64,000 nucleotides of DNA, taken from assembly GCF_010668805.1 (NCBI RefSeq), contig NZ_WUFT01000012.1:124001-188000 (forward strand), in the 5' to 3' direction. The notes under the pieces are model-generated. The model did no database searches, was not told the DNA's origin, and saw only the letters and a program-made list of their open reading frames with translations. This stretch comes from Rhizobium phaseoli (GTDB lineage: Bacteria; Pseudomonadota; Alphaproteobacteria; Rhizobiales; Rhizobiaceae). The translations under genes and the position numbers were made by a program. Below, in pieces: positions 1,484-24,286 of the stretch; position 1 is the stretch's first letter, and each line of letters begins with the position of its first letter.

Positions 1484-4198
1484 TTACGATAACAGTTCCT
1501 TGAACATCCCGTTTTTCTCGGAAAGTTCCGGATAGTTTCCGGCTTCCGCCAGCCCGCCGCGGTCGAAGAGCAGGATCCGGTCGAACACCTCCGCCATCCG
1601 GGCATTGGAAAGCACCCAGATGATTGCCGGACGATGGCCCTCCTCGTGCAGATCCTCGACGATGTTGCGGGTGATCTGATCCTGGACGCGTTGGTCGAGC
1701 GCCGATAGCGGCCGATTGAAGATGAAATAGTCCGAGCGTTTCAACAGCGCGCGGGCAAGGTTCAGTTTCTGGCGCTGCACCATGGTCAGCCGCTTGCCGC
1801 CGGAGCCGACGTCGAATTCGAGGCCGATCGACAGGACATCGTCATAAAGATCGAGCGCGTCGAAGAGTTCGCCCATGATGCCGCGGATGCGATCGGAGGC
1901 GTCGGCCTGCTGATAGGCGATGCGGCCGAAGAGCACATTGTCCATCAGGCTTGCCGACGGGGTGAAACGCTCGGCGTCGTAGCGTTCGATCAGCTCGGCG
2001 AGATCGGCCGGGATATGTTCGTGGAACTGCTTGCGGGCGCTGACGATCTTGCCCATCAGCTCGTCCGTCAGCAAGCCGAAGCGGTGGCGCGGCTCGATAT
2101 AGGCAAAACTCAGCCGGATGATCGCCGACCGTTCCTCGGGCGTCGCGTCTTCGAAGCGGCGGCTTTGCAGTTTCTGCAGCAGCGCCTGATAGGTCGGAAT
2201 GTCATCCGCCGTCATGAAGGTCAGCTGCTGGAAGAACGGATGGTCCGGCGGCAGATCGTGGAAGAGTTCCACCGCATTCTCGGCGATCTCCAGGCCCATG
2301 GCATAGAGATCGGTGCTGAGGCCGGTTTCGCGAAACAACTGCTGGAAATAGGGATGCGCGGCCAGCCGGCGATTGGTCATCAGCGGCCGCTTCATCGTGC
2401 CGAAGAGCAGGTTCTCGCCAACCGTGGCCTGGCCGTTATAGGCGTCGAAATCGAAAGGCACGACGATCGTGTCGAGCCCTTCGTCGCGCAGCCGGTCCCG
2501 GAGTGAGGCACGCAGCGCGACGACGTGGTCGCTGACGGCCACATGCACGTCGGTGTTGACGGTCGAGCGCAGCGCCAGATCGAGAATGTCCTGCGAGATC
2601 AACACGGCGTCGAGCACCGGGCGGATCGCTTTCAAAAGGTCTTCCGGCCCGTTGGCGCCGGCTGCCTTATAGTCCACCCAGTCGCTGTTGAGATCGAGCG
2701 TCGGATTGCCGGCCTTCACCGCCTCGATGGAATGCCATTTATATTCGAGTGCTTCCTGCTCGTCGTAGACCGGATCGGTCATCGGCGCGTGCTTGAGGCC
2801 GTAGAGCAGATTGCTGGCGAGCGTGCCATGGAAGAAAAAGGTGTCGGCCGAGGCATAGGAGATGCGCCGGCCGGTGATCGATTCCGGCATATCGAGCAGG
2901 TCCTGCCCGTCGATGGTGATGCGGCCGGAATCCGGCCAGACCATGCGTCCGAGCGCTTCGGCGAAGGCTTCCGCGCCACTGCCGTTCGGGCCGACGATCG
3001 CAACCGTCTCGTTCGGCTTGATCTCGACGGAGACGTGGTCGACCAGACGGGCGCCGCTGTCGTCGGAGAGTGAGAGGTTGGTGACGACGAACGCATGCGT
3101 CAGCGGGCCCACCGGGGCCGTGGCGAGCTCCTGGATGCGGCTGTCGATCAGCGGTTCGACATTGAACTGCTCATAGACCTGCTGGTACTTCACCTGCACG
3201 TCCTGGCGCATCTGGTCCCAGTCGATCAGTTCCTTCAGCGGGCCGGGCAGGTCCTTATAGGCTGATATGACGGCGACGAGCTGGCCAATGTCGAGCCGGC
3301 CCTGCAGCGCCAGGTAACCGCCGATCGCGTAGAACAGGAAAGGCGTGACCTGGGCGAGGAAGTTGTTGATGAACTTCACCAGGAACTTCCACTGGTAAAG
3401 GTCGTAGCGGATCGAAAAGATCCGGCCGAGCCGCGAAGCGATGTCGGCGCGCTCGAGGTTAGACGTGTCGTTGCCGTGGATCGTGCCGATGCCGTCGACG
3501 ATTTCGCCGACCCGGCCGGAAAGCTCGCGTGCCGTCAGCTGCCGCTGGCGGCCGAGGTCCAGCAGCCGCTTGCGCATCCGGGGAATGACGATGGCCTGGA
3601 CGCCGACGATGCCGGCGGCGATCATGCCGAGCCAGAAATTCTGGACGATGATGAAGGCGAGTGCGGTGATCGCCTGGCCGCCGAGAAGGGCGGGCGAGAC
3701 GAAGGCATCGCCGGTGAAACCGCCCATCGGCTCCACCTCGTCCTTGATCATCGTGGCGATCTCGGCCGATTTTACCCGCTTGAAATGGATAGGCGGAAAA
3801 CGCAGCACCCGGTCGACCAGCTCGAAGCGGATACGGCGCAGCATGCGCTCGCCGAGCCGGCCCTTATAGGTGTTGATGTAGAACTTGAAGAGGCCGTTCA
3901 GCACCACCAGCGTCAGGAACACCAAGCTGAGGGCCATCAGCATCTGGAAACGGTTGAGCTGCAGGCCTTGAAAGAACTCGACATGGCCGATCAGCGGGAT
4001 GTCGTAGGCAATGTGCATGAAGGTCTGCCGTGCGCCTGGACCTTCGAAACCGTCACCCTGGATCGGTCCGTTGACGATCTGCTTCGGCAGGTCGAAGGAC
4101 AGGAAGTAGGGCACCATCGAGGCGGCGACGACAGCCAGAATCCACAGCTGCTGCAGCCGCGTGTTCTTCCAGATGTAGCGGGCGAGGCTTTTTTCCAT
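1484..4198 (-). CDS. ABC exporter-like protein with a degenerate, enlarged ATPase domain
   Basis: 904 aa, against about 580-600 for an ABC half-exporter. Residues 1-330 are a type I exporter membrane domain with hydrophobic segments near 17-35, 85-104, 175-205 and 275-298. The nucleotide-binding domain starts near 365, but every catalytic motif is altered. Walker A is GPNGSGAEA (403-411, Lys lost). The Q-loop position is ADTF (451, Gln to Ala). The signature is LTMVQ instead of LSGGQ (804-808). Walker B ends IFNRP instead of LDEP (826-830). The switch His is Asn865. The D-loop SALD (832-835) is kept. About 300 extra residues sit between the Q-loop and the signature. A motif like NLLYG occurs three times (463-467, 596-600, 754-758), as if the segment after the Q-loop had been copied. 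ATP hydrolysis is not expected. Neighbouring glycosyltransferases suggest a glycan-linked role. Confidence 0.8.
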   Translation of the reverse strand: MEKSLARYIWKNTRLQQLWILAVVAASMVPYFLSFDLPKQIVNGPIQGDGFEGPGARQTFMHIAYDIPLIGHVEFFQGLQLNRFQMLMALSLVFLTLVVLNGLFKFYINTYKGRLGERMLRRIRFELVDRVLRFPPIHFKRVKSAEIATMIKDEVEPMGGFTGDAFVSPALLGGQAITALAFIIVQNFWLGMIAAGIVGVQAIVIPRMRKRLLDLGRQRQLTARELSGRVGEIVDGIGTIHGNDTSNLERADIASRLGRIFSIRYDLYQWKFLVKFINNFLAQVTPFLFYAIGGYLALQGRLDIGQLVAVISAYKDLPGPLKELIDWDQMRQDVQVKYQQVYEQFNVEPLIDSRIQELATAPVGPLTHAFVVTNLSLSDDSGARLVDHVSVEIKPNETVAIVGPNGSGAEAFAEALGRMVWPDSGRITIDGQDLLDMPESITGRRISYASADTFFFHGTLASNLLYGLKHAPMTDPVYDEQEALEYKWHSIEAVKAGNPTLDLNSDWVDYKAAGANGPEDLLKAIRPVLDAVLISQDILDLALRSTVNTDVHVAVSDHVVALRASLRDRLRDEGLDTIVVPFDFDAYNGQATVGENLLFGTMKRPLMTNRRLAAHPYFQQLFRETGLSTDLYAMGLEIAENAVELFHDLPPDHPFFQQLTFMTADDIPTYQALLQKLQSRRFEDATPEERSAIIRLSFAYIEPRHRFGLLTDELMGKIVSARKQFHEHIPADLAELIERYDAERFTPSASLMDNVLFGRIAYQQADASDRIRGIMGELFDALDLYDDVLSIGLEFDVGSGGKRLTMVQRQKLNLARALLKRSDYFIFNRPLSALDQRVQDQITRNIVEDLHEEGHRPAIIWVLSNARMAEVFDRILLFDRGGLAEAGNYPELSEKNGMFKELLS

Positions 4199-4367: not shown

Positions 4368-5513
4368 TTAGGCGAGCGATTCGGAAAGCATGGAGCGAAT
4401 GATGCCGGCGGTTTTCTCGGCGCCGTCGAGATCGAGCAATACCGGCTCGCGGCGCGCCGTGGCGAGCGCCTTTTCGACGGCCTCTTTTACGTGGCCCGGG
4501 GTCAGTCCGGTTTCCGGCAGGATATCGGCCAGATCAAGCGCCTGCAGCCGTTCGGCGCGGACCGTCTGCTCGGTCTCGCCGCCGACAACGAAGGGGATGA
4601 GGATCGCCCGGCAATCGGTGCGCAGCAGATCGCCGACCGTGTTATAACCTGCCTGCGAGATTGACACCTTGGCGCCGCGCAGCAGCGAGGGAAAATCCTT
4701 GCGGAAGCGCACCAGCGTCACATTCGCAGGCGCATTCTCTGCCAACGCGGCGAAATCGGCTTCGGGCAGGTTGGGACCCGATATCAGCAGCCAGCGAAGA
4801 TTGGCGGGCAACAACGTCGCCGCCTCTTTCGCCGCGCCGATCAGCGCGGCGCCGACCGCGCCGCCGCCCGCCGATGCGATGATATCGAATGTCTCGGCCG
4901 GTTCAGGTGCCGGCGGCGCTGCGACGAGGCCGGTATAACGCAGCCTGTCGGCGATCTCCGCTGTCCGCGGGAAGGTGTCCTCAAGCCTGACGAAGCTCGG
5001 ATCGCCGTGGACGAGCACGGCATCGAAATGCGCCTTGACCAGGGCGGCGGTCTCCGCGTCGCGGCCGGCCTTGCGGTTTTCCTGCAGGATGTCGCGCACC
5101 GAACTCAGGAGTTTTGGCCGAGGCTCGGCCGTGTCGATTGCGGCAAGCAATGGCAGCAGTTCGAAGCGCATCTGCCGCCGGCCGAAGGGGAAGGCTTCGA
5201 TGATGACGACATCGGGCTTGGCGGCATGGAAGGCGTCAAGCAGCAGATCGCGGCGGGCGTTGAGGAAATCCTCGCCTACTGGCCGGCCATCGGCGTCGGC
5301 GAGGCCGGAGAAACCGGCATTGCTGGCAACGACTGCCGGCAAGGCCACGGTCTTCACACCCTCGCCCGGAAAACCCGGAACCGGCAGGCCGCCGGTGACG
5401 ACGGTGACGTCAAAACCGTCCTTGGCGAGCGCACTGGCGATGCGGCTGGCCCGGGCGATATGGCCGATGCCGAGCAGATGCTGGACGTAGAAGAAGATAC
5501 GCGGTGCCGTCAT
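4368..5513 (-). CDS. MurG-like (GT28-type) glycosyltransferase
   Basis: 381 aa. The ATG at 5513 overlaps the upstream stop in an ATGA, so it is preferred to an in-frame start 15 nt upstream. The N-terminal Rossmann domain opens with YVQHLLGIGHIARASRIASAL, matching the G-x-GH nucleotide-sugar loop of MurG-like enzymes. The C-terminal half has SISQAGYNTVGDLL and PFVVGGETEQ, the region that grips the donor nucleotide. It resembles the predicted glycosyltransferases of COG4671. Donor and acceptor are unknown. It is the third of three translationally close transferase genes and lies 169 bp upstream of the exporter-like gene. Confidence 0.8.
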   Translation of the reverse strand: MTAPRIFFYVQHLLGIGHIARASRIASALAKDGFDVTVVTGGLPVPGFPGEGVKTVALPAVVASNAGFSGLADADGRPVGEDFLNARRDLLLDAFHAAKPDVVIIEAFPFGRRQMRFELLPLLAAIDTAEPRPKLLSSVRDILQENRKAGRDAETAALVKAHFDAVLVHGDPSFVRLEDTFPRTAEIADRLRYTGLVAAPPAPEPAETFDIIASAGGGAVGAALIGAAKEAATLLPANLRWLLISGPNLPEADFAALAENAPANVTLVRFRKDFPSLLRGAKVSISQAGYNTVGDLLRTDCRAILIPFVVGGETEQTVRAERLQALDLADILPETGLTPGHVKEAVEKALATARREPVLLDLDGAEKTAGIIRSMLSESLA

Positions 5514-6757
5514 GACGCCTTCTGCCATTCGGCCTCGAACAGGCCGGTGAGCTGTCTGATGCTGGAGTGATAGTCGAAATCTTCGCGCACCCGCTTTTCG
5601 GCGGCGTCGCCGAGGCGCTTGCGCAGGGCCGGGTCGCGGATCGCCGCCTCCAGCGCTTTGGCAAGCAGCGCCGGATTCTCCGGTGGCACGACCAGGCCGT
5701 TTTCACCGTCGGCCAGCAGCTCCGGCACGCCGGACACCGCCGTCGAGAGGCAGACGAGCCGCTGGCTCGAAGCCTCCACAAGCACGTTCGGCAGGCCGTC
5801 GCGGTCGCCGTTGGCGGCGATCCGGCAGGCAAGCGCGAAGAGGTCGGCCCGGCGGTAATGATCGAGCACGTCTTCCTGCGCCATGGCGCCCTTCCAGACG
5901 ATGCGGTGGGAGAGGCCGAGTTCGGCCGCCAGCGCCTTAAGCCTCGCAAGCTCCTCGCCGCCGCCGATATGCTCCATGCGCCAGTGGAGGTCGGCGGGCA
6001 GAAGGGCCAGCGCGCGCAGCAGCACGTCGTAGCCCTTCTTTTCGACGGCACGGCCGACGCTGACGATGAAGGCGGGATCGGCGGGGTCGCTGCCGGTCCT
6101 GTCCGAACGCTCGCCGGCAAAATGGCCGAATCGGGCAAGATCGAGCCCGTGGTAGCTCAAGTGCACCGCATCCTTGCGGGATGTAAGCGCGCGCATGTGC
6201 TCATAGCCCGTCCTGGTGCAGGTGACGGCCCAGCGGGCGCTGCCGAGCTTCTCGTGCAGCTCCCAGTCGGGCGATGTCCATATGTCCTTGGCATGCGCTG
6301 AACAGGTCCACGGCGTGCCGGTGAGGATGCTGGCATATTCCGTCACCGAAGCCGGCGTATGGATGAAATGGGCATGCAGCCATTCGCCTCCATCCGGCCA
6401 TTCGCGTCCCAGCACCAGTGCCTGGCCAAGACGGCGGAAGCGGTTGCGGGAGAGGTCGCGCTTGAGGTCGGCGAGGAAGCGTTTGATCAGCGCTTTGAAG
6501 CCGGGTTTGGAAAAACCGGCGACCAGGCCTTTCAGCACGCGGATCGGCTCCTCATGCAGATATTCCGGCAGGTAGACGACCCGCGCCTTGATCTCGTCAT
6601 GGACGGGATGGCGCTTCTTGTCGGTCGGCCGGCGCATCGAAATCAGCGTCAGGTCGAAGCCGGCCTTTTCCAGGCCGAGCAGCTCCTGGGCGATGAAGGT
6701 TTCCGAAAGGCGGGGATAGCCTTTCAGCACGACGAGGATTTTGCGGCGTGACGGCAA
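5510..6757 (-). CDS. GT4-type glycosyltransferase
   Basis: About 415 aa if the TTG at 6757 is used; that codon is 8 nt past the stop of the preceding gene and opens the first recognisable strand (RKILVVLKGYPRLSETF). An open frame extends to 7063, but that part overlaps the upstream gene and reads as Arg/Pro-rich shadow sequence. The C-terminal domain has the GT-B signature: FIVSVGRAVEKKGYDVLLRAL, then DGLPNVLVEA with the Glu of the E-x7-E donor site, then SGVPELLADGENGLVVPP. It probably adds a hexose to a surface glycan; donor and acceptor are not predictable. It overlaps the next gene by 4 nt. Confidence 0.8.
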   Translation of the reverse strand: MPSRRKILVVLKGYPRLSETFIAQELLGLEKAGFDLTLISMRRPTDKKRHPVHDEIKARVVYLPEYLHEEPIRVLKGLVAGFSKPGFKALIKRFLADLKRDLSRNRFRRLGQALVLGREWPDGGEWLHAHFIHTPASVTEYASILTGTPWTCSAHAKDIWTSPDWELHEKLGSARWAVTCTRTGYEHMRALTSRKDAVHLSYHGLDLARFGHFAGERSDRTGSDPADPAFIVSVGRAVEKKGYDVLLRALALLPADLHWRMEHIGGGEELARLKALAAELGLSHRIVWKGAMAQEDVLDHYRRADLFALACRIAANGDRDGLPNVLVEASSQRLVCLSTAVSGVPELLADGENGLVVPPENPALLAKALEAAIRDPALRKRLGDAAEKRVREDFDYHSSIRQLTGLFEAEWQKAS

Positions 6758-6765
6758 GGTTTGGC

Positions 6766-7974
6766 CTATTCCGCGCCGACGAGGGAAAGGTGGCTGCCGC
6801 GGCCGTCGATCCATCGGCCAACGGTCTGCGAGATGTGGTCGAGCCCCTCGAGATGCATATTGCTGCCGCTCTTTGACGGCGGCAGCCGCGAGGGCAGGCG
6901 CTTCAGAGCCTCGGCCATGATGGTCGGGTCGACGGACTGTTCCGGCAGCAGCATGTCGACGAGGCCGAGTGAGCTTGCGCGCTTCGCGCGCAGCAACTGT
7001 TCCTCGCGCGGCTTGACGCGCGGCACGATGAGGGCCGGCTTGTCGAAGGAAAGGATCTCGCAATAGGTGTTATAGCCGCCCATGGCGACGACGCCGGTGG
7101 CGCCGTCGATCAGCTCTTCCATGTGGTTGTCGAACTCGATCACCTCGATATACGGGATGGCTTCGCCCTTCTGCACCAGCTTGGCGCGCTCGGCGGCCGG
7201 CATATAGGGTCCGAGCACGACGAGCGCCTTCTGCGTCAGCGTCGGATCGGCCTCATAGGCATTCATCACGTCGTGGACGAGATCGGAGCCGTCGCCGCCG
7301 CCGCCTGTCGTCACCAGGAGGTAATTATCCTTGCGGGCGTTGACCGAGGTCTTGCCCTTGGAGACGCTGCGCTGCAGGAAACCGACGAAATCCATCTTCC
7401 GGCGCAGGCTGGCCGGCACGTCGAGACCAACAAGCGGATCGTAGAAATCAGGCGGGCCATAGACCCAGACGCTGTCGTAATATTGGTCGATCTTCTGCAT
7501 GATGCCGTTCCTCTTCCACTCGGCGTCGAGCAGATGCGGTGCGTCCATGACTTCGCGCAGGCCGAGCACCAGCACGGTGCCGCGCGCCTTGAGATAGGCC
7601 AGCGTATCCTCGACCTCGCCTTTCAATCCCATCGGCTCCTTGTCGACGATGAAAATATCGGGCTGGAAGGTCTCGGCGGTATGGCGGATGCTCGATTCGC
7701 GCATCTTCAGCGTCTCGTGCAGATCGATATGGCTGGCGAGCGAGGTATATTCGCCGTTGCGCAGCTTGATGACGCTCGGAATCTTCACGAAGTCGACGCG
7801 GGCGCGGTAGTCGAAGGCGCCGGCGATCGTGGCCCCCGAAATGATCAGGATGTTGAGGCCGCGATAATCCTCGACCAACGCATGGGCGATGGCGCGACAG
7901 CGCCTGAGATGGCCGAGACCGAAGGTGTCGTGACTGTACATGAGGATGCGTGCATCTTCGAGACGTCTGGACAT
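6766..7974 (-). CDS. predicted glycosyltransferase of the COG4671 type
   Basis: 402 aa from the ATG at 7974, chosen because an AGAAGGA box lies 6 nt upstream; another ATG at 7980 abuts that box. The N-terminus has YSHDTFGLGHLRRCRAIAHAL, a diagnostic G-L-G-H loop of MurG-like predicted glycosyltransferases. The C-terminal half has VVAMGGYNTYCEILSF and PRVKPREEQLLRA, the nucleotide-sugar site. It is a distant paralogue of the gene at 4368-5513. As first gene of the minus-strand cluster it probably leads the transcript that continues through two more transferases and the exporter-like gene. Confidence 0.8.
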   Translation of the reverse strand: MSRRLEDARILMYSHDTFGLGHLRRCRAIAHALVEDYRGLNILIISGATIAGAFDYRARVDFVKIPSVIKLRNGEYTSLASHIDLHETLKMRESSIRHTAETFQPDIFIVDKEPMGLKGEVEDTLAYLKARGTVLVLGLREVMDAPHLLDAEWKRNGIMQKIDQYYDSVWVYGPPDFYDPLVGLDVPASLRRKMDFVGFLQRSVSKGKTSVNARKDNYLLVTTGGGGDGSDLVHDVMNAYEADPTLTQKALVVLGPYMPAAERAKLVQKGEAIPYIEVIEFDNHMEELIDGATGVVAMGGYNTYCEILSFDKPALIVPRVKPREEQLLRAKRASSLGLVDMLLPEQSVDPTIMAEALKRLPSRLPPSKSGSNMHLEGLDHISQTVGRWIDGRGSHLSLVGAE

Positions 7975-8009
7975 GGGCATTCCTTCTGGGGTGAACAACA
8001 TCGTTAGTA

Positions 8010-8040
8010 CCCCCACCGTCCGGAGGCCAAGAGGTGGGGG
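8010..8040 (-). terminator. GC-rich hairpin between the importer operon and the glycosyltransferase cluster
   Basis: CCCCCACC (8010-8017) pairs with GGTGGGGG (8033-8040), 15-nt loop. It lies just after the last importer gene and before the first transferase gene, both on the minus strand. No clear U-tract follows, so it may be a weak terminator or a processing site. Confidence 0.35.
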
Positions 8041-8070: not shown

Positions 8071-9243
8071 CTATTTGTAGGGATCTGCCGCATCACGCAA
8101 GCCGTCTCCCAGAAAGTTGAACGCCAAAATGACAAGAACAACAGGAATGATCGGATAGAGCAGCCAAGGATAAAAGGCGATGACGCTTACGCTTTTTGCC
8201 TCGGTCAGCAGAATACCCCAGCTGGTGATCGGCGGGCGAAGGCCGAGGCCGAGGAAGGAGAGCGCGGTTTCGCCGAGGATCATGCCGGGGATTGAAATCG
8301 TCGCCGAGGCAATGAGGTGCGACATGAAGCCTGGCACTAGATGCCTGCCGATAATGCGCGGCGTGCTGGCGCCCATCAGCTGTGCCGCCTGAACGTAATC
8401 TTCCTCGCGCAGCGCCAGCAGCTTGGAGCGCACGGCGCGGGCAAGCCCCGTCCAGTCGATGATGCCGAGGATGACGGTGATGCCGAAATAGATGACGATG
8501 GGGCTCCAGGTCACCGGCATGATCGCCGCCAGCGCCATCCACAGCGGCAGGCTCGGCAGCGATTGCAGCACTTCGATCAGGCGCTGGACGATGAGATCGA
8601 AAATGCCGCCGCGATAGCCGGCAAGGCCGCCGATGACGATGCCGAGCACGAAGCTGATCGAAATGCCGATCAGACCGATGGTCAGCGATATCCGTGCGCC
8701 ATAGAGAATGCGCGACAGCACGTCACGGCCAAGACGATCGGTGCCGAGCAGGAACATCTGCCCGCCGATTGCCGGGCAGACCAGATGATAGTTCGAGGCG
8801 GCAATTCCCCAGAATTTATAGGCATCGCCGCGGCAGAAGAAGCGGATCGGCTGCACGTCGTTCGTCTTGTCGGCATAGACGCGGTGCAGCGTGTCGAGAT
8901 CGAGCGTCATGCTGCGGCCGTAGACGAAGGGACCGACGAAACTGCCCTTGTCGAAGAAATGAACACTTTGCGGCGGCGCATGGATGAAATCGACGTTGCG
9001 CGTGTGCAGGCCGTAGGGCGCCAGGAATTCGACGATCAGGATCATCAGGTAGACGGCGGCGAGAAAGATGCCGGAGATCAAGGCGAGCTTATGCTGCTTG
9101 AACTTCCACCACATCAGCTGCTTCTGCGAGGCGAGATGGATGCGCGATTGCGCCGCCGTCATGGTCTCGGTCGCCAAGGGGTCGAAAGGCGCGGTCGAAA
9201 CGTAATGCGGAAGCGGCGCGCCGGGTGCGGGAAGGGGCGACAT
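8071..9243 (-). CDS. peptide-type ABC importer permease (OppC/YejE-like)
   Basis: 390 aa. The N-terminal helix (about 52-75) is followed by a long periplasmic stretch of roughly 100 residues, as in YejE-type permeases. The core domain of about five helices follows, starting LGTDRLGRDVLSRILYGAR, the standard OppC entry motif. The EAA loop that contacts the ATPase is AAQLMGASTPRIIGRHLVPG. Its ATG overlaps the preceding permease stop by 1 nt. Fourth gene of the importer operon. The large N-terminal extension (about 40 residues before the first helix) is somewhat unusual. Confidence 0.9.
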   Translation of the reverse strand: MSPLPAPGAPLPHYVSTAPFDPLATETMTAAQSRIHLASQKQLMWWKFKQHKLALISGIFLAAVYLMILIVEFLAPYGLHTRNVDFIHAPPQSVHFFDKGSFVGPFVYGRSMTLDLDTLHRVYADKTNDVQPIRFFCRGDAYKFWGIAASNYHLVCPAIGGQMFLLGTDRLGRDVLSRILYGARISLTIGLIGISISFVLGIVIGGLAGYRGGIFDLIVQRLIEVLQSLPSLPLWMALAAIMPVTWSPIVIYFGITVILGIIDWTGLARAVRSKLLALREEDYVQAAQLMGASTPRIIGRHLVPGFMSHLIASATISIPGMILGETALSFLGLGLRPPITSWGILLTEAKSVSVIAFYPWLLYPIIPVVLVILAFNFLGDGLRDAADPYK

Positions 9244-10241
9244 TATTTGGTGCTCCTGCCTTGCAGACGGATGCGGGGATCGAGAAAGCCGAGCGCGATA
9301 TCGGAGATCAAAACGCCGATGACATTGAGAAAGGCCAGAAACATCAGGAAGGAGCCGGCGAGATACATGTCCTGACTCTGCAGCGCCTTGATGAGCATCG
9401 GTCCCGTCGTCTCCAGCGACAACACGATCGCGACGATCTCGGCGCCCGAGATGATCGACGGCAGGATCGAGCCGATATCGGCGACGAAGAAGTTGAGCGC
9501 CATGCGCAGCGGATATTTAAGCAGCGCCCGCATCGGATGCAGACCTTTGGCGCGGGCTGTCGTCACATATTGCTTCTGCATCTCGTCGAGCAGGTTGGCG
9601 CGCAAGCGGCGGATCATGCCGGCGGTGCCGGCCGTGCCGACGATGATGACGGGGATCCAGAGATGGGAGAGGATCGACCGCGCCTTCTCCCAGCTCATCG
9701 GCGCCGAAATATATTGCTGGTCCATCAGATGGCCGATCGAGATGCCGAACCAGATATTGGCGAAATACATCAGGATCAGCGCCAGCATGAAGTTCGGAAT
9801 GGCGATGCCGAGCAGGCCGAAGAAGGTCAGCCCGTAATCGCTCCAGCTATACTGGTGGGTGGCCGAATAGATGCCGATCGGAAAGGCGATCAGCCAGGTA
9901 AGCAGGATGGTGGTGAAGGAGACGAGGATCGTCAGCCACAGGCGCTCGCCGACGACGTCGGAGACCGGCAGCTGGTATTCGAAGGAATAGCCGAAATCGC
10001 CGTGCAGCATGCCGCCGACCCAGTAGAAATAGCGCACGATCTCCGGCTTGTCGAAGCCGTATTGCTGGCGCATCTCCTCGATTTCCTGGAGGTTGGCGGT
10101 CTCGCCGGAGGCGCGCAGCTCAGCGATCTGGCTCTCGAAGAAGTCGCCCGGCGGCAGCTCGATGATGGTGAAAACCAACGCCGAAATGACGAAGAGCGTC
10201 GGCACCATGGCGGCGATGCGCCAGAGAATGTATCTGAGCAC
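9243..10241 (-). CDS. peptide-type ABC importer permease (OppB-like)
   Basis: 332 aa with six predicted membrane segments. It begins with the typical OppB helix MLRYILWRIAAMVPTLFVIS. The EAA loop is TARAKGLHPMRALLKYPLR. A periplasmic segment with GGMLHGDFGYSFEY matches the conserved GDxGxS region of this family. It pairs with the OppC-like permease to form the channel. The gene lies 3 bp after the binding-protein gene. Confidence 0.9.
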   Translation of the reverse strand: MLRYILWRIAAMVPTLFVISALVFTIIELPPGDFFESQIAELRASGETANLQEIEEMRQQYGFDKPEIVRYFYWVGGMLHGDFGYSFEYQLPVSDVVGERLWLTILVSFTTILLTWLIAFPIGIYSATHQYSWSDYGLTFFGLLGIAIPNFMLALILMYFANIWFGISIGHLMDQQYISAPMSWEKARSILSHLWIPVIIVGTAGTAGMIRRLRANLLDEMQKQYVTTARAKGLHPMRALLKYPLRMALNFFVADIGSILPSIISGAEIVAIVLSLETTGPMLIKALQSQDMYLAGSFLMFLAFLNVIGVLISDIALGFLDPRIRLQGRSTK

Positions 10242-10244
10242 GCC

Positions 10245-12152
10245 TCAGGCCTCCTTGTACCAGAATGTATCCGGCATGTAGATGCCGAGATAGGAGGTGG
10301 GATCGAAGCCGTAGAGGGCTTTCTCCGGCAGGTTCTGCAGCTTGGCGGCGCAAAGGACCGGCTGCAGCGTGCTGTTGATCAGCCCGATCGAGAACACCTG
10401 CTGCGTATAGAGCGACAGCATCTTGTGCCAGATCACCTGGCGCTCCTCGAATTTCGCCGTCGAGCCCCATTGGTCGAGCAGGTCGACCAGTTCGGCCGCC
10501 TCAGGCAAGTCCGGTGCGGCGCCCTCCTGGCCGGCGGAGAGGTAATGCATGCCCCAGAGCGGCCATTGCAGCTGATCGTCGAGCGTCGGCGCCAGCCCTG
10601 AGGGTGACATGTCGGCCGTCGGCACGCCATTGTCGAGCCCATACCAGATCGACATCATGATCGAACCGCTCATGGCGCGGTTGCGGAAGACGTCGCGCTG
10701 CGAGGTGCGGGTATAGAGCGCAAGGCCGATATTGGCCCAGTGATCGTGGACGAGCTCCAGTACGTCGGTATCGAGGTTGCTCTCGCCGGCGGTCTCGACG
10801 GTGATCTCGGCGCGCCGCCCGTCCGGCAGCAGCCTTATGCCGTCATCGCCGCGCTGGGTCAGGCCGAGTTCGTCGAGCAGACGATTGGCCTCGTCGGCAT
10901 CGAACTTCACGTAGGCATCGGCATATTCCTGTTTGAACAGCGGGCTGTCGGGCAGGACGGTATCGGCGCTCGGCGTGCCCAAGCCGTAGAAGGCGACCAT
11001 GTTGATCTCGTGCCGGTCGATCGCCAGCGACAAGGCGCGGCGCAGGCGCACGTCGCGAAAAAGGCCGCGCCACACCTCGTCGGCGCAGTTGAGGTTCGGC
11101 AACAGCGTGATGCGCGAGCCGCGCGCCACCTTCCAGAGATTGACCTTTACCGGGAAGCGTTTCTCGGCCTCCTTCAGAAAGGTGTAGTCGTTGAAATCGA
11201 TGCCGGTCGCCTGCAGGTCGGCCTCGCCGGCGCCCGCCTTGGCGGCGATGATCGACGAGGAGGAGACGTTGAGAATGAACCGGTCGAGATAGGGAAGCTG
11301 CCTGCCGGTCTCGTCGACGCGGTGGAAGAACGGATTGCGATCGAAGACGAATTGTTCGGCCGGCAGCGGCGTCGTGTTGCGCCAGGGATCGAGCGTCGGC
11401 AGGTTCGGATTCTCCGGCCGGTAGGAGCGGGCCATTTTGATGTGCAGGTCCTGCCACTTCTTGACGCGGTTGGCCTGCATCATCTGGTCCATCTTCGCCT
11501 GGTCAGGCTGGAACTTCTTATGGAACTGCTTGAGATAATGCGCCGGCCCGACGATGACCAGCGGGATGGGACCGGCCAGCGTCGGCAGGAACATCGGGTT
11601 GGGTTTATCCCAGGTGTAGCGCACCGTCAGCGGATCGAGCACCTCGAAGCGCGGCAGGCTGCCATGCGGGCGAAGCTCGAGCGCGCCGCCGCCGGGCGTC
11701 AGCTTGTCGTTCAGGATGACATCTTCCCACCAGTAGCGGAAATCGTCGGCCGTGAACGGCTGGCCGTCGGACCATTTATGGCCCTCGCGCAGCGTGAAGG
11801 TGAAAACGGTGTCGTCCTCCGAGCGGAAATCGGCGAGGATATCCGGCTGGAACTGCAGGTGCTTGTTGTAGCCGACCATGCGGGCATAGCCGTAGATCGT
11901 CATGAAGCGGATGTCGCGCTGGCTGCCGATAATGGTGCGCACCGTGCCGCCGTAGCTGCCGGGTGCAAGCCCCATTTCCTTCAGGTTGACGATGCGCGGG
12001 CGAACGGGAATGCGCTCGGCCATACCAGGCAGGCTGCCGGATGTGAGCTGGTCCTTGAGGAATTCCGGCTCGCCGGCCTGTTGCGCCCGAAGCACCGCCG
12101 GCGCGATCGCCGCGCCGACAAGGCCGCCCAGAAAAATGCGACGCGTTACCAT
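10245..12152 (-). CDS. family 5 extracellular solute-binding protein with a Tat-type signal
   Basis: 635 aa, longer than the usual 500-550 for DppA/OppA and close to YejA-type proteins. The N-terminus has a twin-arginine pattern, [18 protein letters not shown], then a probable cleavage after LRAQ. Conserved family 5 features include FTLREGHKWSDGQPFTADDF and a later VRLRRALSLAIDRHEI. It overlaps the upstream ATPase gene by 7 nt. The ligand is likely a peptide, opine or other amine-rich solute; the sequence alone does not say which. Confidence 0.88.
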   Translation of the reverse strand: MVTRRIFLGGLVGAAIAPAVLRAQQAGEPEFLKDQLTSGSLPGMAERIPVRPRIVNLKEMGLAPGSYGGTVRTIIGSQRDIRFMTIYGYARMVGYNKHLQFQPDILADFRSEDDTVFTFTLREGHKWSDGQPFTADDFRYWWEDVILNDKLTPGGGALELRPHGSLPRFEVLDPLTVRYTWDKPNPMFLPTLAGPIPLVIVGPAHYLKQFHKKFQPDQAKMDQMMQANRVKKWQDLHIKMARSYRPENPNLPTLDPWRNTTPLPAEQFVFDRNPFFHRVDETGRQLPYLDRFILNVSSSSIIAAKAGAGEADLQATGIDFNDYTFLKEAEKRFPVKVNLWKVARGSRITLLPNLNCADEVWRGLFRDVRLRRALSLAIDRHEINMVAFYGLGTPSADTVLPDSPLFKQEYADAYVKFDADEANRLLDELGLTQRGDDGIRLLPDGRRAEITVETAGESNLDTDVLELVHDHWANIGLALYTRTSQRDVFRNRAMSGSIMMSIWYGLDNGVPTADMSPSGLAPTLDDQLQWPLWGMHYLSAGQEGAAPDLPEAAELVDLLDQWGSTAKFEERQVIWHKMLSLYTQQVFSIGLINSTLQPVLCAAKLQNLPEKALYGFDPTSYLGIYMPDTFWYKEA

Positions 12153-14041
12153 CCGCGCAACTCCTTGGCATCGGCGCCTTTGCGGGCGCGCACCAGATGG
12201 CCGTCGCCGAGATCGGCATAGGCAAGCTCGGAGGCGTCGTCATGCGCGGCGGTGAAGGTCGTGCCCCAGTTCTGCTTGTCGGCGGCGCCGTTTTCCCGGA
12301 GCGCCTTGAAATCCAGTGGCCGGTCGAGATCGGGGAAGGGGACGGCGGCGAGCAGCGATTTCGTATAGGGGTGCACCGGATCGCGCAGGATGATCTCGCG
12401 CGGCGCGATCTCGACGATGCGGCCCTTGCACATCACCGCGATCCGGTCGGCCATGTAATCGACGACGGCGAGATTGTGCGAAATGAACAGATAGGTCAGT
12501 CCCAGCTCTTTTTGCAGATCCTTCAACAGATTGAGGATCTGCGCCTGGACGGAGACGTCAAGCGCCGAGACCGGCTCGTCGAGGATGATGAGCTTCGGGC
12601 CGAGCGCCAGGGCGCGGGCGATGCCGATGCGCTGGCGCTGGCCGCCGGAAAAACTATGCGGGTAACGGCTGAGATAACGCTTGTCGAGGCCGATCGCCGC
12701 CATCAGACCTTCGACCTTGCGCTTGCGCTCGTCACTATCGCCGCGATCGTGAATCTCCAGAGGTTCGCTCAGGATGTTGCGCACCGTCATGCGCGGGGAG
12801 AGCGAGGAGACCGGATCCTGGAACACCATCTGGATCTTGGTGCGCATATCCTGCAGCGCTTCGCCGCGCACCGAAAGCACGTCGATCACGTCCTTGCCGT
12901 CGTTGAACACCACCGCGCCGCTGTCGGGTGTAATGGCCCGCATCAGGATCTTGCTGAGCGTCGTCTTGCCGCAGCCGGATTCGCCGACCAGGCCGAGGCA
13001 TTCGCCGCGGCGGATATCGAAGCTGACGTCGTCGACGGCGTGCACGACGGCGGCTTCGTGCTTGCCGAGGAAACTGCGCTTGCGCGTCTTGTAGGTCTTC
13101 GAGAGGTTGGCGACTGAAAGCAGTGTGCCCGGCGCCTCCGCCTGCAACGGCTTCTTCTTGCCGACGAGGGTCTCGAGATTGACCGGCACGTCGCGCAACG
13201 CCTTCAGCCGCTCGCCGGGTTTCATGTCGAAATGCGGAACTGCGGCCATCAGCGCCTTGAGATAGGGATGCTGCGGATTGCGGAAGATCGCCTCGACCGG
13301 CCCGGCTTCCATGATCTCGCCGTGATAGATGACGACCACCTCGTCGGCCATATTGGCGACGATGCCGAGATCGTGGGTGATGAGCAGCATCGCCATGCCG
13401 AGCTTGGCCTGAAGATCGCGCAGCAGCTCGAGGATCTGCGCCTGGATCGTCACGTCGAGCGCCGTCGTCGGCTCGTCGGCGATCAACAGCGCGGGCTTGC
13501 AGATCAGCGCCATGGCGATCATCGCGCGCTGGCGCATGCCGCCGGACAGTTCGAACGGATACATGTCGTAGGTGCGGTGTGGATTGGAAAAGCCGACGAG
13601 GCCGAGCATTTCCTCGGTCTTCTCACGTGCTTCCTGCTTGTCGGCTTCGGTATGGATCAGCAGCGCTTCGCTGATCTGGTTGCCGACGGTGTGCAGCGGC
13701 GAGAGCGAGGTCATCGGCTCCTGGAAAATCGTCGCCATGCGCCGGCCGCGCAGGTCGCGCATTTCCTCGCTGTCGCGCGAAAGCGACAGAATATCGGTCG
13801 CGGTGCCGTCGAGCGGATCGGTGAAGAGGATGCGGCCGGAGGCGCTGGCCGGGTTGGGCAGAATGCCCATGATCGACTGGCTGATCACCGATTTGCCGGA
13901 GCCGGATTCACCGACGAGTGCGGTGACCTTGCCCGGAAGAATGCGAAGATTGGCCTCCTTTACGACGCGCAACCGGTCGCCGAAAACCGAGAAGGAGACG
14001 TCGAGATTTTCAATACGCAACAAATCGGCCGCAGACGCCAT
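12146..14041 (-). CDS. peptide-type ABC importer, two ATPase domains in one chain (YejF-like)
   Basis: 631 aa. Two complete ATPase domains are fused. The first has Walker A GESGSGKS, signature [10 protein letters not shown] and Walker [13 protein letters not shown]. The second has GESGCGKTT, signature [10 protein letters not shown] and [12 protein letters not shown]. Both carry the family's C-terminal oligopeptide-transporter extension ([12 protein letters not shown] and [12 protein letters not shown]). It replaces the usual separate DppD and DppF subunits. It is the first gene of the operon ATPase, binding protein, permease, permease, an order that differs from the common binding-protein-first layout. 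Confidence 0.92.
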
Positions 14042-14196: not shown

Positions 14197-15540
14197 TTAC
14201 TGGATGAACTTCTCCATGGTCGTGCGCTCGACTTGTTTTTTCGCGTCACGGTGCAGGAGAATGACCTGTTCGGCTTCGGAAAGTCCGTTCTGCACCGCCT
14301 CGCGGAAGCTCTCGTCGACGTTGATCTCGGGGGCCGGCGCACGCGGCTGCAGCACCGTCACCTTCTGGCGAATGCCGCGCAGCTTCTCTTCGCCGAGCGT
14401 CGTCCATTCGCCGCCGCAATAACCGGCGAAGGCCTGGCTGGCGACGACCTCGCGACCGTATTTCTTGGTCAGGATCTGCAGGCGCTGCACCTCGTTGACC
14501 GCCGAGCCGAAGGCGGAGAAGGTCAGCCGGTCCTTGAGGCCGACATTGCCGAACATGACGTTGCCGACATGTAGGCCGATGCCGTAGCCGATCTTGGTGA
14601 GGCCTTTCTGCTCGCGGTCCCTGTTGAGTTCGGCGACCCGCGCCTGCGCCTGATGGACGGCCGAAAGTGCTGCCTCGCAGGCGATTTTCGACGGGTCCTT
14701 GTGGCGCCCGCAGGGGTAGACGGCGAGGAAGCCGTCGCCGAGAAAACTCAGGATCTCGCCGCCATTGCGGTTGAACGGGGCGGCTATCGCGTCGAAGAAC
14801 TGGTTCAGCGTGTCGATATAGGCCTGGCGGCCTTCCTTTTCGGCATAGACGGTGGATTCGCGCATGTCGCCCATGACAAGGGCGGCGCGGATCGTCTCGC
14901 CGTCGCCGCGGCGGATCTGGCCGTTCAGCACACGCTTGCCGGCGTCGCCGCCGAGATAGGTGGTCAGCATGTTGTTGGCGAGCTTGCCGAGCACCGCCAT
15001 CTTGGCGGCGACCGCCAGATGGTTTTGCATCCGGAGAAGCGCATCGATCATATCGTCGGAAAAGCCGTTATGGTTGTCGGTGGACCAGGAGCCCATCATG
15101 CCCTGCACCGAGCCGTCGCTGAAGGGCTGCACGAAGGCCAGGTAATCGGTGATCTTGTCCTTGCGCAGATCCTCGAAGATTGGAAATTCGGCCGGCCCTT
15201 CCTGCATCAGCCGGCGGCGGATGTGCTGCAAATTGTTGTCGAGCAGGTAATAATAAGGGCTCTGCAGGAAGCGGTCCGGCTTTTGCCCGGCCGGCATGCG
15301 GAAGCCCTCGATGGTGACGCCGCTGGCGCGCCGCCAGGTGAAGCTCAGCGCATCGTAGAGCGGATGCAGCATCGAAAAGGTCAGATGCACGCGGGCGATC
15401 GGCAGGCCGGCGGAGGCGAGCCGTTCGCAGAAACCGCGCACGATATTTTCCAGCTCGTCCCCGGCCAGCGAAGAGTTCGTCAGCCATTCAGCGACCCGGT
15501 CCAACAGGATGGAGGAGACGCTGGATTCGATCGTGCTCAT
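14197..15540 (-). CDS. class III adenylate/guanylate cyclase
   Basis: 447 aa from the ATG at 15540; an in-frame extension to 15609 looks non-coding. The N-terminal half (about 1-190) is a soluble sensor-like domain with no membrane segment and no motif I can assign. The C-terminal half is a class III cyclase domain: AALVMGDMRESTVYA with the first metal Asp, SFLGDGFLAVYP with the second, then IGYGIGLHVGNVMFGNVG and a FSAFGSAVNEVQRLQ transition-state region. The usual second-helix wording (AxGxxVNxAxR) is close to canonical, so activity is plausible. It is monocistronic and lies 155 bp downstream of the divergently oriented importer start. Confidence 0.85.
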   Translation of the reverse strand: MSTIESSVSSILLDRVAEWLTNSSLAGDELENIVRGFCERLASAGLPIARVHLTFSMLHPLYDALSFTWRRASGVTIEGFRMPAGQKPDRFLQSPYYYLLDNNLQHIRRRLMQEGPAEFPIFEDLRKDKITDYLAFVQPFSDGSVQGMMGSWSTDNHNGFSDDMIDALLRMQNHLAVAAKMAVLGKLANNMLTTYLGGDAGKRVLNGQIRRGDGETIRAALVMGDMRESTVYAEKEGRQAYIDTLNQFFDAIAAPFNRNGGEILSFLGDGFLAVYPCGRHKDPSKIACEAALSAVHQAQARVAELNRDREQKGLTKIGYGIGLHVGNVMFGNVGLKDRLTFSAFGSAVNEVQRLQILTKKYGREVVASQAFAGYCGGEWTTLGEEKLRGIRQKVTVLQPRAPAPEINVDESFREAVQNGLSEAEQVILLHRDAKKQVERTTMEKFIQ

Positions 15541-16159
15541 TCTCGGTATGATCCTCATCAGCCACGCCATCCCCAAGAGCCAAAAATCCCCCGGCCGGCA
15601 CATTTTCATGCGCAGGTCACAAGGAAATCAGGATGTACGAGCGGTATTATTTGTCAACGATCTGCCGAGAGCCCGGCAGCGGCACCCCTCTGCTCCCCAT
15701 ATCGGGGGACCGGATGGGCAATCCTTTCACGGCGGTTCACTATCAAAAGTCAAAATAGGGATGCTGCAAATGCGAAACAATGGGATCGGGATTTTTTGTG
15801 CCCTGAAGTTGCAGCAAAGGATGGCGGCGGGGCATTTTGGCCACACCCGGGTAAGGGTCTTTGAGCATCATTGCGGTCGATTGACGACACCAAAACCCCT
15901 CCCCAACCCCTCCCCACAAGGGGGAGGGACTTAACCTGCCGCATCGTCTCACTCAAAAATCATCGCCGAAACACTGATGTCGAAAGAGGGCGCGCCGGCG
16001 CCGCGGGTTAGCCCCGCCCCCTTGTGAGGAGGGGTTGGGGCGGGGTCTTCGTCGCCAACCGAATGCTATTTGCCACTCGGGGAGAAAAGGACCCCGGGTT
16101 TAATTCACCGCAATCATGCATTAGATCAGCTTCCTCTTCCCCGTTTGAAAGATCCCGCC
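15541..16159. other. gene-free stretch with rhizobial GC-rich repeats
   Basis: About 620 bp between the divergent cyclase and nucleotide-sugar dehydrogenase genes. The only structure seen is the pair of inverted GC-rich repeats at 15893-15932 and 16010-16049. The remaining open frames have no family features. Confidence 0.5.
15893..16049. repeat. inverted pair of C-rich dispersed repeats
   Basis: The copy at 15893-15932 (cccctcccc-type, with a CCCTCCCCACAAGGGGGAGGG core) and the copy at 16010-16049 are imperfect reverse complements about 80 bp apart. Together they could form a large stem-loop. The core resembles intergenic repeats found at 48482-48613, 51289-51333 and 60682-60832. Confidence 0.65.
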
Positions 16160-17497
16160 TTGGCCCCCTCCACCTTCGATACGCTTTTGCAGAAGATCGA
16201 CACCCGCAACGCCCGTGCCGGCGTCATCGGGCTCGGCTATGTCGGCCTGCCGCTGGCGATGGCGGTGGCGCGTAGCGGCTTTGCGGTCACCGGTTTCGAC
16301 ATCGATCCCGGAAAGATGGTGGCGCTTGGCGCTCGCCGCTCCTATATCGACGCCGTCAGCGACGCGGCGCTTGCTGCCGAGATCGAGGCCGGGCGCTTCG
16401 AGGCGACGACCGATTTCGCCGGCCTTGCCGCCTGCGACGTCATCATCATCTGCGTGCCGACGCCGCTGACCAAACACCGCGATCCCGACCTTTCCTTCGT
16501 CGAGACGACGTCGCGCTCGATCGCCGCGCATTTGCGCCCCGGCCAGCTCGTCGTGCTGGAATCGACCACCTATCCCGGCACGACCGATGATATCGTCAAG
16601 GTCATTCTCGAAGGCACGGGGCTGAAATCCGGTTCGGATTTCTTCGTCGGCTTCTCGCCGGAGCGCGAGGATCCCGGCAACCAGAACTATCATACCGCCA
16701 CCATCCCGAAGGTCGTCGCCGGCGACGGCACTGAAGCGCTGGCGCTGATGAAGGCCTTTTACGGCGCGGCGGTCTCGACCGTCGTTCCGGTCTCCTCGAA
16801 CGCGACGGCCGAGGCGGTGAAGCTTACCGAAAACATCTTCCGCTCGGTCAACATCGCCCTCGTCAACGAGCTGAAGACCGTCTATGCGGCGATGGGCATC
16901 GACGTCTGGGAAGTGATCGATGCGGCCAAGACCAAGCCTTTCGGCTACATGCCCTTCTATCCCGGCCCCGGCCTCGGCGGCCACTGCATCCCGATCGACC
17001 CCTTCTACCTCACCTGGAAATCGCGTGAATACGAGCTTCCGACCCGCTTCATCGAGCTGGCCGGCGAGATCAATTCGGCGATGCCGCGTTATGTCGTCGG
17101 CAAGCTTGCCGAAGCGCTCGACATCCGCGCCGGCAAGGCGCTGAGCCGGAGCCGGGTGCTGGTGATCGGGCTCGCCTACAAGAAGAATGTCGCCGATATA
17201 AGAGAGAGCCCGTCGCTGCGGCTGATCGAGATCATCGAGGAGCGCGGCGGACGGGCGGATTATCACGATCCCTTCGTCGCCGAGATCCCGCCGACACGTG
17301 AATATCAAGCGCTGAAGGGCCGCCGATCGGTGGCGCTGACCCCGGAAGTCGTAAGCGGCTACGATGCGGTGCTGGTCGCCACCGACCATGACAGCGTGGA
17401 TTATGCGGCGCTGGTAAAAAGTGCTGCGTTGATCATCGACACGCGCAATGTCTTCGGCCGGCTTGGGCTTTCGGCCGACCACGTCATCAAGGCGTAA
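16160..17497 (+). CDS. nucleotide-sugar dehydrogenase (UDP-glucose/UDP-ManNAc dehydrogenase family)
   Basis: About 445 aa from a TTG at 16160; TTG codons at 16145 and 16070 are in frame, and no ribosome site settles the choice. The N-terminal NAD domain starts GVIGLGYVGLPLAMAVARSGF. The catalytic Cys is in GPGLGGHCIPIDPFYL, and the C-terminal domain has LVIGLAYKKNVADIRESPS. These enzymes oxidise the C6 hydroxyl of a UDP-sugar to a uronic acid with two NAD+. The GHCIPIDP wording fits the UDP-N-acetylhexosamine dehydrogenase (WecC/WbpA/TviB) group more than UDP-glucose dehydrogenase. It stands alone; its product would feed surface polysaccharide synthesis. Confidence 0.88.
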   Translation: MAPSTFDTLLQKIDTRNARAGVIGLGYVGLPLAMAVARSGFAVTGFDIDPGKMVALGARRSYIDAVSDAALAAEIEAGRFEATTDFAGLAACDVIIICVPTPLTKHRDPDLSFVETTSRSIAAHLRPGQLVVLESTTYPGTTDDIVKVILEGTGLKSGSDFFVGFSPEREDPGNQNYHTATIPKVVAGDGTEALALMKAFYGAAVSTVVPVSSNATAEAVKLTENIFRSVNIALVNELKTVYAAMGIDVWEVIDAAKTKPFGYMPFYPGPGLGGHCIPIDPFYLTWKSREYELPTRFIELAGEINSAMPRYVVGKLAEALDIRAGKALSRSRVLVIGLAYKKNVADIRESPSLRLIEIIEERGGRADYHDPFVAEIPPTREYQALKGRRSVALTPEVVSGYDAVLVATDHDSVDYAALVKSAALIIDTRNVFGRLGLSADHVIKA

Positions 17498-19323: not shown

Positions 19324-19447
19324 GTCATCCAGCTTAGCACAGACCCATGTTGCCACTGCAACGCCATTTCCCATTTACGGCAATCGACTTGGCAAGGTTT
19401 CATGTGTTAGCACCCGCGGACGATTTTTCATCACGGATACGGATCAG

Positions 19448-23343: not shown

Positions 23344-24286
<943 letters not shown>

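Follow-up and report, generated by a model that had tools for sequence, protein, structure and literature searches.

The ATPase is what defines an ABC transporter. In CFTR (ABCC7) and SUR (ABCC8/9) an ABC exporter has become a channel or the regulator of one; CFTR is an ATP-gated channel, and both have kept ATP binding, with at least one near-canonical site each. The cyclic nucleotide-regulated bacteriocin exporters of cyanobacteria are ATP-driven and have normal nucleotide-binding domains (NBDs). In heterodimers such as TAP and TM287/288, catalysis is supplied by the partner half. The cyanobacterial systems are named in a table of PMC8707875. SbmA, of the SbmA/BacA (SLiPT) family, has a membrane domain of the ABC type that needs no ATP for its work (PMC13316013).

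Here we describe a 904-residue ABC-like protein encoded in a 64,000-nucleotide stretch of the Rhizobium phaseoli genome (the window; Table 1), together with its relatives. It resembles the type IV ABC half-exporters MsbA, NdvA and Atm1 in its domain order, its PF00664 membrane domain and an NBD core recognisable on either side of an insertion. Unlike them, it has all its catalytic motifs replaced, contains the Q-loop/helical part three times, belongs to a family whose conservation pattern is inverted, and has a cyclic-nucleotide-binding (cNMP) domain attached. The presence of a cNMP domain within or beside an ABC exporter recalls the cyanobacterial bacteriocin exporters. In contrast to CFTR and SUR, no catalytic motif of its NBD is intact, and a cyclic-nucleotide sensor is what has been attached to it. 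As in SbmA/BacA, the membrane domain is predicted to work without ATP; SbmA has no NBD, whereas the family described here, predicted to be ATPase-dead, keeps a triplicated pseudo-NBD and a cNMP partner.

Table 1. Position, strand and basis of assignment of the features in the window
Feature	Coordinates	Strand	Basis
ABC half-exporter, predicted ATPase-dead, 904 aa	1484..4198	(-)	ORF, Pfam, family alignment
Transmembrane domain, residues 1-345	3164..4198	(-)	PF00664; conservation: family's best-conserved part
Degenerate Walker A GPNGSGAE, residues 403-410	2969..2992	(-)	alignment
Repeat 1: Q-loop/helical unit with NLLYG, residues 440-575	2474..2881	(-)	HH comparison
Repeat 2: Q-loop/helical unit with NLLFG, ~residues 576-736	1991..2473	(-)	HH comparison
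Repeat 3: Q-loop/helical unit with NVLFG, ~residues 737-802	1793..1990	(-)	HH comparison
Degenerate signature RLTMVQRQ, residues 803-810	1769..1792	(-)	alignment; SGG 0/112
Degenerate Walker B YFIFNR and retained D-loop SALD, residues 824-835	1694..1729	(-)	alignment
Switch region IIWVLSN, residues 859-865	1604..1624	(-)	alignment
Cyclic-nucleotide-binding protein, 155 aa	918..1385	(-)	PF00027; synteny, fusion; Glu and Arg present
GT28-type glycosyltransferase	4368..5528	(-)	PF04101; conserved neighbour
GT4 glycosyltransferase	5510..7063	(-)	PF00534; relatives ~415 aa
GT28-type glycosyltransferase	6766..8016	(-)	PF04101
Opp-type importer: two permeases, binding protein, fused ATPase	8071..14041	(-)	Pfam
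Class III adenylate/guanylate cyclase (neighbour)	14197..15609	(-)	PF00211, 28 bits vs cut-off 21.9
Nucleotide sugar dehydrogenase	16070..17497	(+)	TIGR03026

Domains, altered motifs and repeats

The open reading frame starts with ATG and has exactly the ends given in the preliminary description, which had also reported an intact frame of 904 codons, the replacement of every catalytic motif and a kept D-loop; the alignment and the exact frame bear out all three. The ABC_membrane model (PF00664) matches residues 87-312 (E 1.1e-14), and the ABC_tran match (PF00005) at residues 387-478 covers only model positions 2-80 of 137. In the alignment, Walker A reads GPNGSGAEA (403-411), with Ala409 in place of the Lys and Glu410 in place of the Ser/Thr. 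The Q-loop Gln is Ala451, the signature LSGGQ has become LTMVQ (804-808) with its glycines replaced, the Walker B Asp-Glu pair is Asn828-Arg829 and the switch His is Ser864, while the D-loop SALD (832-835) is retained. Of the hallmarks of type IV ABC exporters, the membrane domain and the NBD fold are present, and Walker A, LSGGQ, Walker B and the Q-loop/switch residues are lacking. As judged from these motifs, the protein appears to have abandoned ATP hydrolysis.

The two structure predictions were made from shallow alignments and are of low to moderate confidence. The AlphaFold2 model of the full protein (57 rows, at least 74% identity) reached a pLDDT of 53.5 and was not used; an NBD-only model (51 rows, at least 67% identity), with a pLDDT of 69.6, was used for the fold match alone, and matched the TAP1 NBD with a TM of 0.77 by target length (Foldseek) as well as the HlyB NBD.

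Profile comparison shows the Q-loop/helical part to be triplicated in tandem, which accounts for the insertion in the ATPase domain. The three repeat segments match each other at E = 6e-15, 1e-7 and 9e-7, and all three resemble the Q-loop/helical segment of a canonical exporter from the same genome (E 4e-11, 8e-5 and 4e-12). Six other segments of the protein served as controls: five give E values of 0.039 or worse, true overlap aside; segment 640-740, the sixth, is itself part of repeat 2 and hits repeat 1 at E 4e-5. Taken together, these E values, the canonical-exporter matches and the controls indicate that the repeat similarity is more than chance. Similarity extends to the tails of repeats 1 and 2 (E 8e-6). 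Inclusion of the signature helix in the repeat unit was considered and not upheld, the tail of repeat 2 giving no match (E 0.04) to residues 775-835, with the true signature helix. An NLLYG/NLLFG/NVLFG motif had been described as occurring three times in the insertion; NLLFG (596) and NVLFG (754) do lie inside it, but NLLYG (463-467) precedes it, at the ordinary post-Q-loop site. The motif recurs because it is part of the triplicated subdomain, of which the first copy is the canonical one.

Family conservation and relatives without an NBD

The family alignment of 221 rows was built after exclusion of search hits below 300 bits and of L001 and L038, which are almost identical to the query. Dropping rows shorter than 780 residues or at least 85% identical to a kept row gave a non-redundant set of 112 alphaproteobacterial sequences, spanning 28-100% identity. 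Within this set the signature SGG is found in no member, the Walker A Lys with Ser/Thr in 5, the Q-loop Gln in 12, the Walker B Asp-Glu in 7 and the switch His in 13, and the Walker A Ser/Thr position is occupied by Glu or Asp in 73. Homologues with normal Walker motifs, named beforehand as evidence that would count against the proposal, were looked for across the family and not found: the five motifs occur together in 0/112, none of them is present in 84/112, and the best rows keep two. In some members as many as 7 of the 11 motif residues survive, and these members may still bind nucleotides to some extent. The family is present in 116 of 397 genomes sampled from the order and in 97 of 289 sampled from the class, and occurs in soil, plant-associated and marine bacteria. 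For the terms tried, no paper on it was recognised in the open-access literature searched.

This distribution argues against a decaying pseudogene, as does a dN/dS of 0.04-0.19 for the whole gene (six orthologues compared) and 0.05-0.27 for the insertion. The frame is broken at one of 80 loci from named genomes (L095) and in one genome of the order search (G408), and three hits contain a single in-frame TAG, as decay would have it; at the other 79 of the 80 loci the frame is at least 900 aa long. Erosion of the frame, the second result that the preliminary description had named as damaging to its claim, was thus looked for and not found. Since dN/dS is well below 1, the pseudogene reading is refuted and keeps a negligible probability.

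The ATPase core is better conserved than the membrane domain in 0/103 relatives, whereas for an Atm1-like exporter, drawn from the same class, this holds in 29/29. The conservation pattern is inverted relative to a true exporter: the cytosolic part is least conserved, and the membrane domain is most conserved and under the strongest selection. An NBD that is the fastest-evolving part and has all its motifs replaced is hard to reconcile with the protein being the inactive half of a heterodimer, for which a normal ABC half-exporter encoded elsewhere would supply catalysis. Heterodimeric exporters are well known to have degenerate sites (PMC7756269), but no ABC exporter turned up in the conserved neighbour families scanned (F0-F14, F16, F17 and F19-F22), and such a partnership seems improbable.

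Relatives without an NBD were also found, one of them encoded in the same R. phaseoli genome. In a tree whose canonical exporter branches are very long, five NBD-less relatives and 33 family members group apart from six canonical exporters, two of which are near-copies, with a support of 92/97. Of 100 family-conserved membrane-domain residues, the NBD-less relatives keep 39-75 and the canonical exporters 13-27. Their existence would suit a secondary transporter driven by a gradient and comparable to SbmA/BacA, with the cNMP protein acting as a mere modulator or regulating something else; SbmA, structurally an ABC-type membrane domain with no NBD, is energised by the proton gradient (PMC13316013). 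However, the pseudo-NBD has been kept under purifying selection, the occurrence of the cNMP domain in the same chain (17/111) is hard to square with an incidental role, and Pfam (E up to 0.1) finds ABC_membrane and ABC_tran only, with no match to an SbmA/BacA model. We consider this reading unlikely.

The cyclic-nucleotide-binding partner and other neighbours

The 155-residue protein encoded downstream matches PF00027 (cNMP_binding) at E 2.5e-19 and, weakly, TIGR03896, a bacteriocin-transport-associated protein (NCBIfam). It has Glu84 and Arg93, which we take to be the phosphate-binding ligand residues, and it qualifies as a cyclic-nucleotide-binding protein. A cNMP domain is adjacent in 85 of 111 relatives and in the same chain in 17, hence present together with the ABC protein in 102; Pfam detects it in all five fused proteins scanned. 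The pocket Glu is found in 96/104 cNMP domains and the Arg in 98/104, and six of the 12 domains without one or the other belong to fused forms. Seven relatives have no cNMP domain nearby, and none was seen in wider stretches of 5 to 19.5 kb around all seven. These seven keep on average 5.0 of the 11 motif residues, versus 3.3 in the 102 others (rank test, p = 0.012, relatedness uncorrected; L159, L186 and the query left out), and under stricter sorting the mean is 3.6 for the 85 with an adjacent cNMP gene and 2.1 for the 17 fused forms. This gives a hint that members without a cNMP domain may retain more ATPase residues.

The neighbouring cyclase gene has a counterpart annotated at the same place on R. 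johnstonii pRL11. Cyclase families occur in 12/40 neighbourhoods, with about 2 expected at random, and the R. phaseoli genome contains 26 cyclase-domain matches (PF00211). Some Opp component is found in 17/44 neighbourhoods. The GT4 gene probably starts further in than its open reading frame. In three neighbour families (F4, F16 and F19) Pfam detects no domain at an E of up to 0.01; F4 shows weak sequence similarity to MprF/LpiA in the PDB (E 6e-5).

Glycosyltransferase families are found in 31/44 neighbourhoods, corresponding to 31/35 unfused and 0/9 fused forms, and a nucleotide sugar dehydrogenase in 4/44. A restriction of glycosyltransferases to split forms was not upheld as a rule, given that three fused relatives beyond the 44 (L199, L200 and L037/L215, the last pair being one and the same locus) have them nearby. 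Such a neighbourhood, with an enlarged cytosolic domain, is what would be expected of a scaffold that transports nothing, gathers the adjoining glycosyltransferases at the membrane and is switched by the cNMP protein. A functional parallel is provided by the tyrosine pseudokinase EcpK of Myxococcus, which is important for exopolysaccharide synthesis (PMC12004946). The cNMP domain is nevertheless a more constant partner than the glycosyltransferases, since these are absent from the nine fused forms and from four of the 35 others. Moreover, the supposed platform is the least conserved part and the membrane domain the most, and NBD-less relatives exist, which leaves the scaffold doubtful.

A putative gate under cyclic-nucleotide control

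The preliminary description had proposed that the gene is conserved for a role that is not ATP-driven transport, and had named a scaffold and a regulated channel as examples; this fits the family-wide loss of motifs, and the cNMP partner makes "regulated" concrete. The reading that we favour, with a probability of about one half on the sequence evidence, is an ATP-independent ABC-fold membrane gate or transporter under cyclic-nucleotide control. A more specific form of it, which we put forward tentatively and at less than even odds, is a ligand-gated ABC protein in which the cNMP domain took over the gating input of ATP, while the dismantled ATPase domain, its helical subdomain triplicated, became a transmission platform. 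The family would then represent a cyclic-nucleotide-gated, ATP-independent conduit across Alphaproteobacteria.

Under this mechanism the protein, presumed to be a homodimer, would have an ABC exporter fold that no longer uses ATP, and binding of a cyclic nucleotide to the cNMP domain would replace ATP as the event that changes the state of the dimer. The enlarged cytosolic platform would relay the signal to the membrane domain, and the latter would open, close or re-orient a route for a hydrophilic substrate. Any net transport would be powered by a gradient, as it is in SbmA/BacA. In the branch to which the window belongs, the substrate could perhaps be a glycan or its building blocks, produced by the adjoining glycosyltransferases.

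If true, a primary pump would have been turned into a signal-gated membrane device, to be placed beside CFTR and SbmA/BacA. The fused and split versions, the partial loss of motifs and the NBD-less relatives, all within the same class, would offer a graded series for testing this transition. Furthermore, rhizobial cyclases have, to our knowledge, few known effectors, and the ABC/cNMP pair would be a candidate for such an effector.

Domain architecture and loss of the catalytic motifs

The ABC gene and the features around it are listed in the table. Among solved structures the nucleotide-binding domain (NBD) of the ABC protein is best matched by ABCB4, to which it aligns in two pieces (residues 374-477 and 783-902), one on either side of the insertion.

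Features of the ABC gene and its surroundings in the window
Feature	Position	Strand	Remark
ABC gene	1484-4198	minus	904 aa
Membrane domain	residues 87-312 of ABC protein		PF00664
ATPase domain, N-terminal part	residues 387-478 of ABC protein		PF00005
cNMP-binding-domain protein	918-1385		155 aa; directly downstream of ABC gene; Pfam
ParC-like protein	162-910	plus	adjoins cNMP gene
DUF3095 protein	18148-19374	minus
Row of MoxR-type ATPase and DUF58 genes	21303-25606
Second class III cyclase domain	31984-32529	minus	G000:C32:155984-156529; within ORF 31939-33657

The preliminary description had listed the Walker A lysine, Q-loop glutamine, signature glycines, Walker B Asp-Glu and switch histidine as replaced and the D-loop as kept, and alignment bears out each of these statements. 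From 221 sequences aligned first, motifs were counted in the 112 differing by more than 15%: the SGG signature is found in none, the Walker A Lys with Ser/Thr in 5, the Walker B DE in 7, the Q-loop Gln in 12 and the switch His in 13, so that 84 sequences keep none of the five motifs, 19 keep one and 9 keep two. ATPase loss is thus general among these relatives of the window protein. An acidic residue occupies the Walker A Ser/Thr position in 73/112 sequences and the Walker B Asp has become Asn in 63/112; Asn828, Arg829 and Pro830 are invariant among the 57 sequences at 74% identity or above. The losses look stepwise, because single catalytic residues persist in many members, such as Lys409 (35/112) and Glu829 (29/112).

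Profiles of residues 440-575 (segment 1), 570-735 (2) and 730-830 (3) match one another with E-values of 9e-7 (1-2), 6e-15 (2-3) and 1e-7 (1-3), and the Q-loop-to-signature profile of an Atm1-like exporter from the same genome matches segments 1, 2 and 3 at 4e-11, 8e-5 and 4e-12. Control segments from the membrane domain (three) and the outer NBD parts (two) give 0.039 or worse, true overlap aside; the sixth (640-740) is part of repeat 2 and resembles repeat 1 with an E-value of 4e-5. Asn596, Asn754 and Gly758 are present in 112/112 sequences, and Asn463 in 99/112. NLLYG, NLLFG and NVLFG, earlier noticed as a recurring motif, are therefore three copies of one motif, ordinarily found just after the Q-loop. 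Judged from sequence, the insertion is a triplication of a Q-loop/helical unit.

Selection on the membrane domain and relatives without an NBD

Comparison with six orthologues (NG86) gave dN/dS values of 0.04-0.19 for the whole ABC gene. By region, the range is 0.01-0.13 in the membrane domain, 0.03-0.20 and 0.07-0.20 in the N- and C-terminal NBD parts, and 0.05-0.27 in the insertion. The frame reaches at least 900 aa in 79/80 loci of named genomes, the broken one being L095; it is also broken in the copy of one order-search genome (G408), and three matches from wider searches carry one TAG each.

Conservation is inverted relative to an ordinary exporter. Mean identity to the window protein falls from 54% in the membrane domain to 35% in the NBD core and 33% in the insertion among the 103 relatives below 70% identity, and from 52% to 37% and 34% among 42 class-level loci. 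Not one of the 103 relatives or of the 42 loci has an NBD core better conserved than its membrane domain. The Atm1-like control, present in 37/58 genomes (E up to 1e-100), averages 48% identity over its membrane domain and 68% over its NBD across the 29 same-class loci given (the query's own excluded), with the NBD more conserved in 29/29.

Moreover, related membrane domains occur without any NBD. One is the 412-aa product of RLO149_RS22370 on Roseobacter litoralis plasmid pRLO149_83 (L272 8773-10011); another, of 333 aa, is encoded in the window's own genome (contig 97, L303 5722-6723). With the 412-aa protein as query (E up to 1e-30), 43/142 genomes gave matches, mostly in long frames the size of the ATPase-dead family, with a few in shorter frames (344-425 aa). 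A tree of 44 membrane domains sets 33 from the ATPase-dead family and 5 NBD-less ones, the latter at two places, apart from 6 canonical exporters with support of 92/97; two of these six are near-copies, and the canonical branches are very long and flagged by the program. Of 100 family-conserved membrane-domain positions, 39-75 are retained in NBD-less proteins, compared with 13-27 in canonical exporters. The Roseobacter protein has an additional N-terminal segment and lies in a cluster with a copper oxidase, an azurin-type protein and a copper P-type ATPase; a similar gene at another locus (L307) is near a multicopper oxidase. The 333-aa protein neighbours a cation P-type ATPase, a phosphoketolase, cytochrome b561, a chalcone-synthase-like protein and a universal stress protein.

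Distribution and the cyclic-nucleotide-binding partner

The nearest record found is from Rhizobium sp. CCGE 510 (99.8% identity). At an E-value limit of 1e-60, and counting the window's own genome, relatives occur in 30/41 genomes of the nearest set, 116/397 of the order sample, 97/289 of the class sample and 27/398 of the phylum sample, all 27 within the window's class. Plasmid records with a match (E up to 1e-40) number 317, mostly from Rhizobium and Sinorhizobium, and 262 span at least 80% of the query; among the 60 matches listed, 11, including Roseobacter litoralis, span just 37-38%, corresponding to the membrane domain.

A cNMP gene is adjacent on the same strand in 85/111 non-redundant relatives and the domain lies in the same chain in 17; it is absent in 7, with one ambiguous case and one with too little flank. 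Across all 222 loci the numbers are 192 adjacent, 19 same chain, 8 none, 1 ambiguous and 2 with short flank. All five fused proteins scanned carry both PF00664 and PF00027. Of 104 aligned cNMP domains, 96 have the pocket Glu (Asp in 5) and 98 the Arg; 12 are without Glu and/or Arg, 6 of them fused forms. In relatives, a RelE/ParE toxin gene is annotated between the ParC-like and cNMP genes.

The same gene order is annotated on pRL11 of R. johnstonii 3841. There pRL110043, listed in PMC11406972 as a putative arabinose efflux permease required for attachment at pH 6.5 and 7.0, would correspond to the MFS gene on the far side of the toxin pair, if the numbering is followed by gene order. Counting onward, the cNMP gene would be pRL110046, the ABC gene pRL110047, the cyclase pRL110055 and the sugar dehydrogenase pRL110056; pRL110056 is one of the O-antigen enzymes that PMC11103875 reports as important for colonising roots. 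The open-access literature searched yielded no paper under pRL110046 or pRL110047.

Neighbourhood and proposed function

Gene content was compared in 44 neighbourhoods: 40 on long contigs and chosen to be diverse, plus three further loci and the window. Three cyclase families occur in 13/44, 12 of them within the 40 (one representative of each family matches PF00211); about 2 cyclases would be expected at random in 40 stretches of 19.5 kb (445 PF00211 matches in 38 genomes, about 181 Mb), the 40 not being independent of one another. An Opp component is found in 17/44, a nucleotide sugar dehydrogenase in 4/44 and the DUF3095 family in 3/44. A family of about 258 aa (L239 2288-3037 and relatives), near glycosyltransferases in 18/44, weakly resembles MprF/LpiA in sequence and gave no match in a Pfam search. 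The two genes preceding the MoxR/DUF58 row have weak, sub-cut-off matches to DUF4129 and DUF4350.

GT4-type and GT28-type glycosyltransferases each occur in 30/44 neighbourhoods, and either type in 31. The ABC protein might conduct or transport a substrate, or it might only assemble partners, as a scaffold for the adjoining glycosyltransferases. These enzymes accompany none of the nine fused forms, versus 31/35 of the others; three fused relatives outside this set do have them nearby, which makes the scaffold explanation slightly more probable, though still unlikely.

The evidence together points to an ATP-independent membrane device with a cyclic nucleotide as its input, because a dead ATPase is kept under selection and the membrane domain under stronger selection, NBD-less membrane-domain relatives exist, and a cNMP sensor, its pocket mostly intact, is nearly constant. 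SbmA, which is without an NBD, offers a precedent for an ABC-type membrane domain working on the proton gradient, as PMC13316013 reports; the ABC protein may likewise function independently of ATP, under cyclic-nucleotide control.
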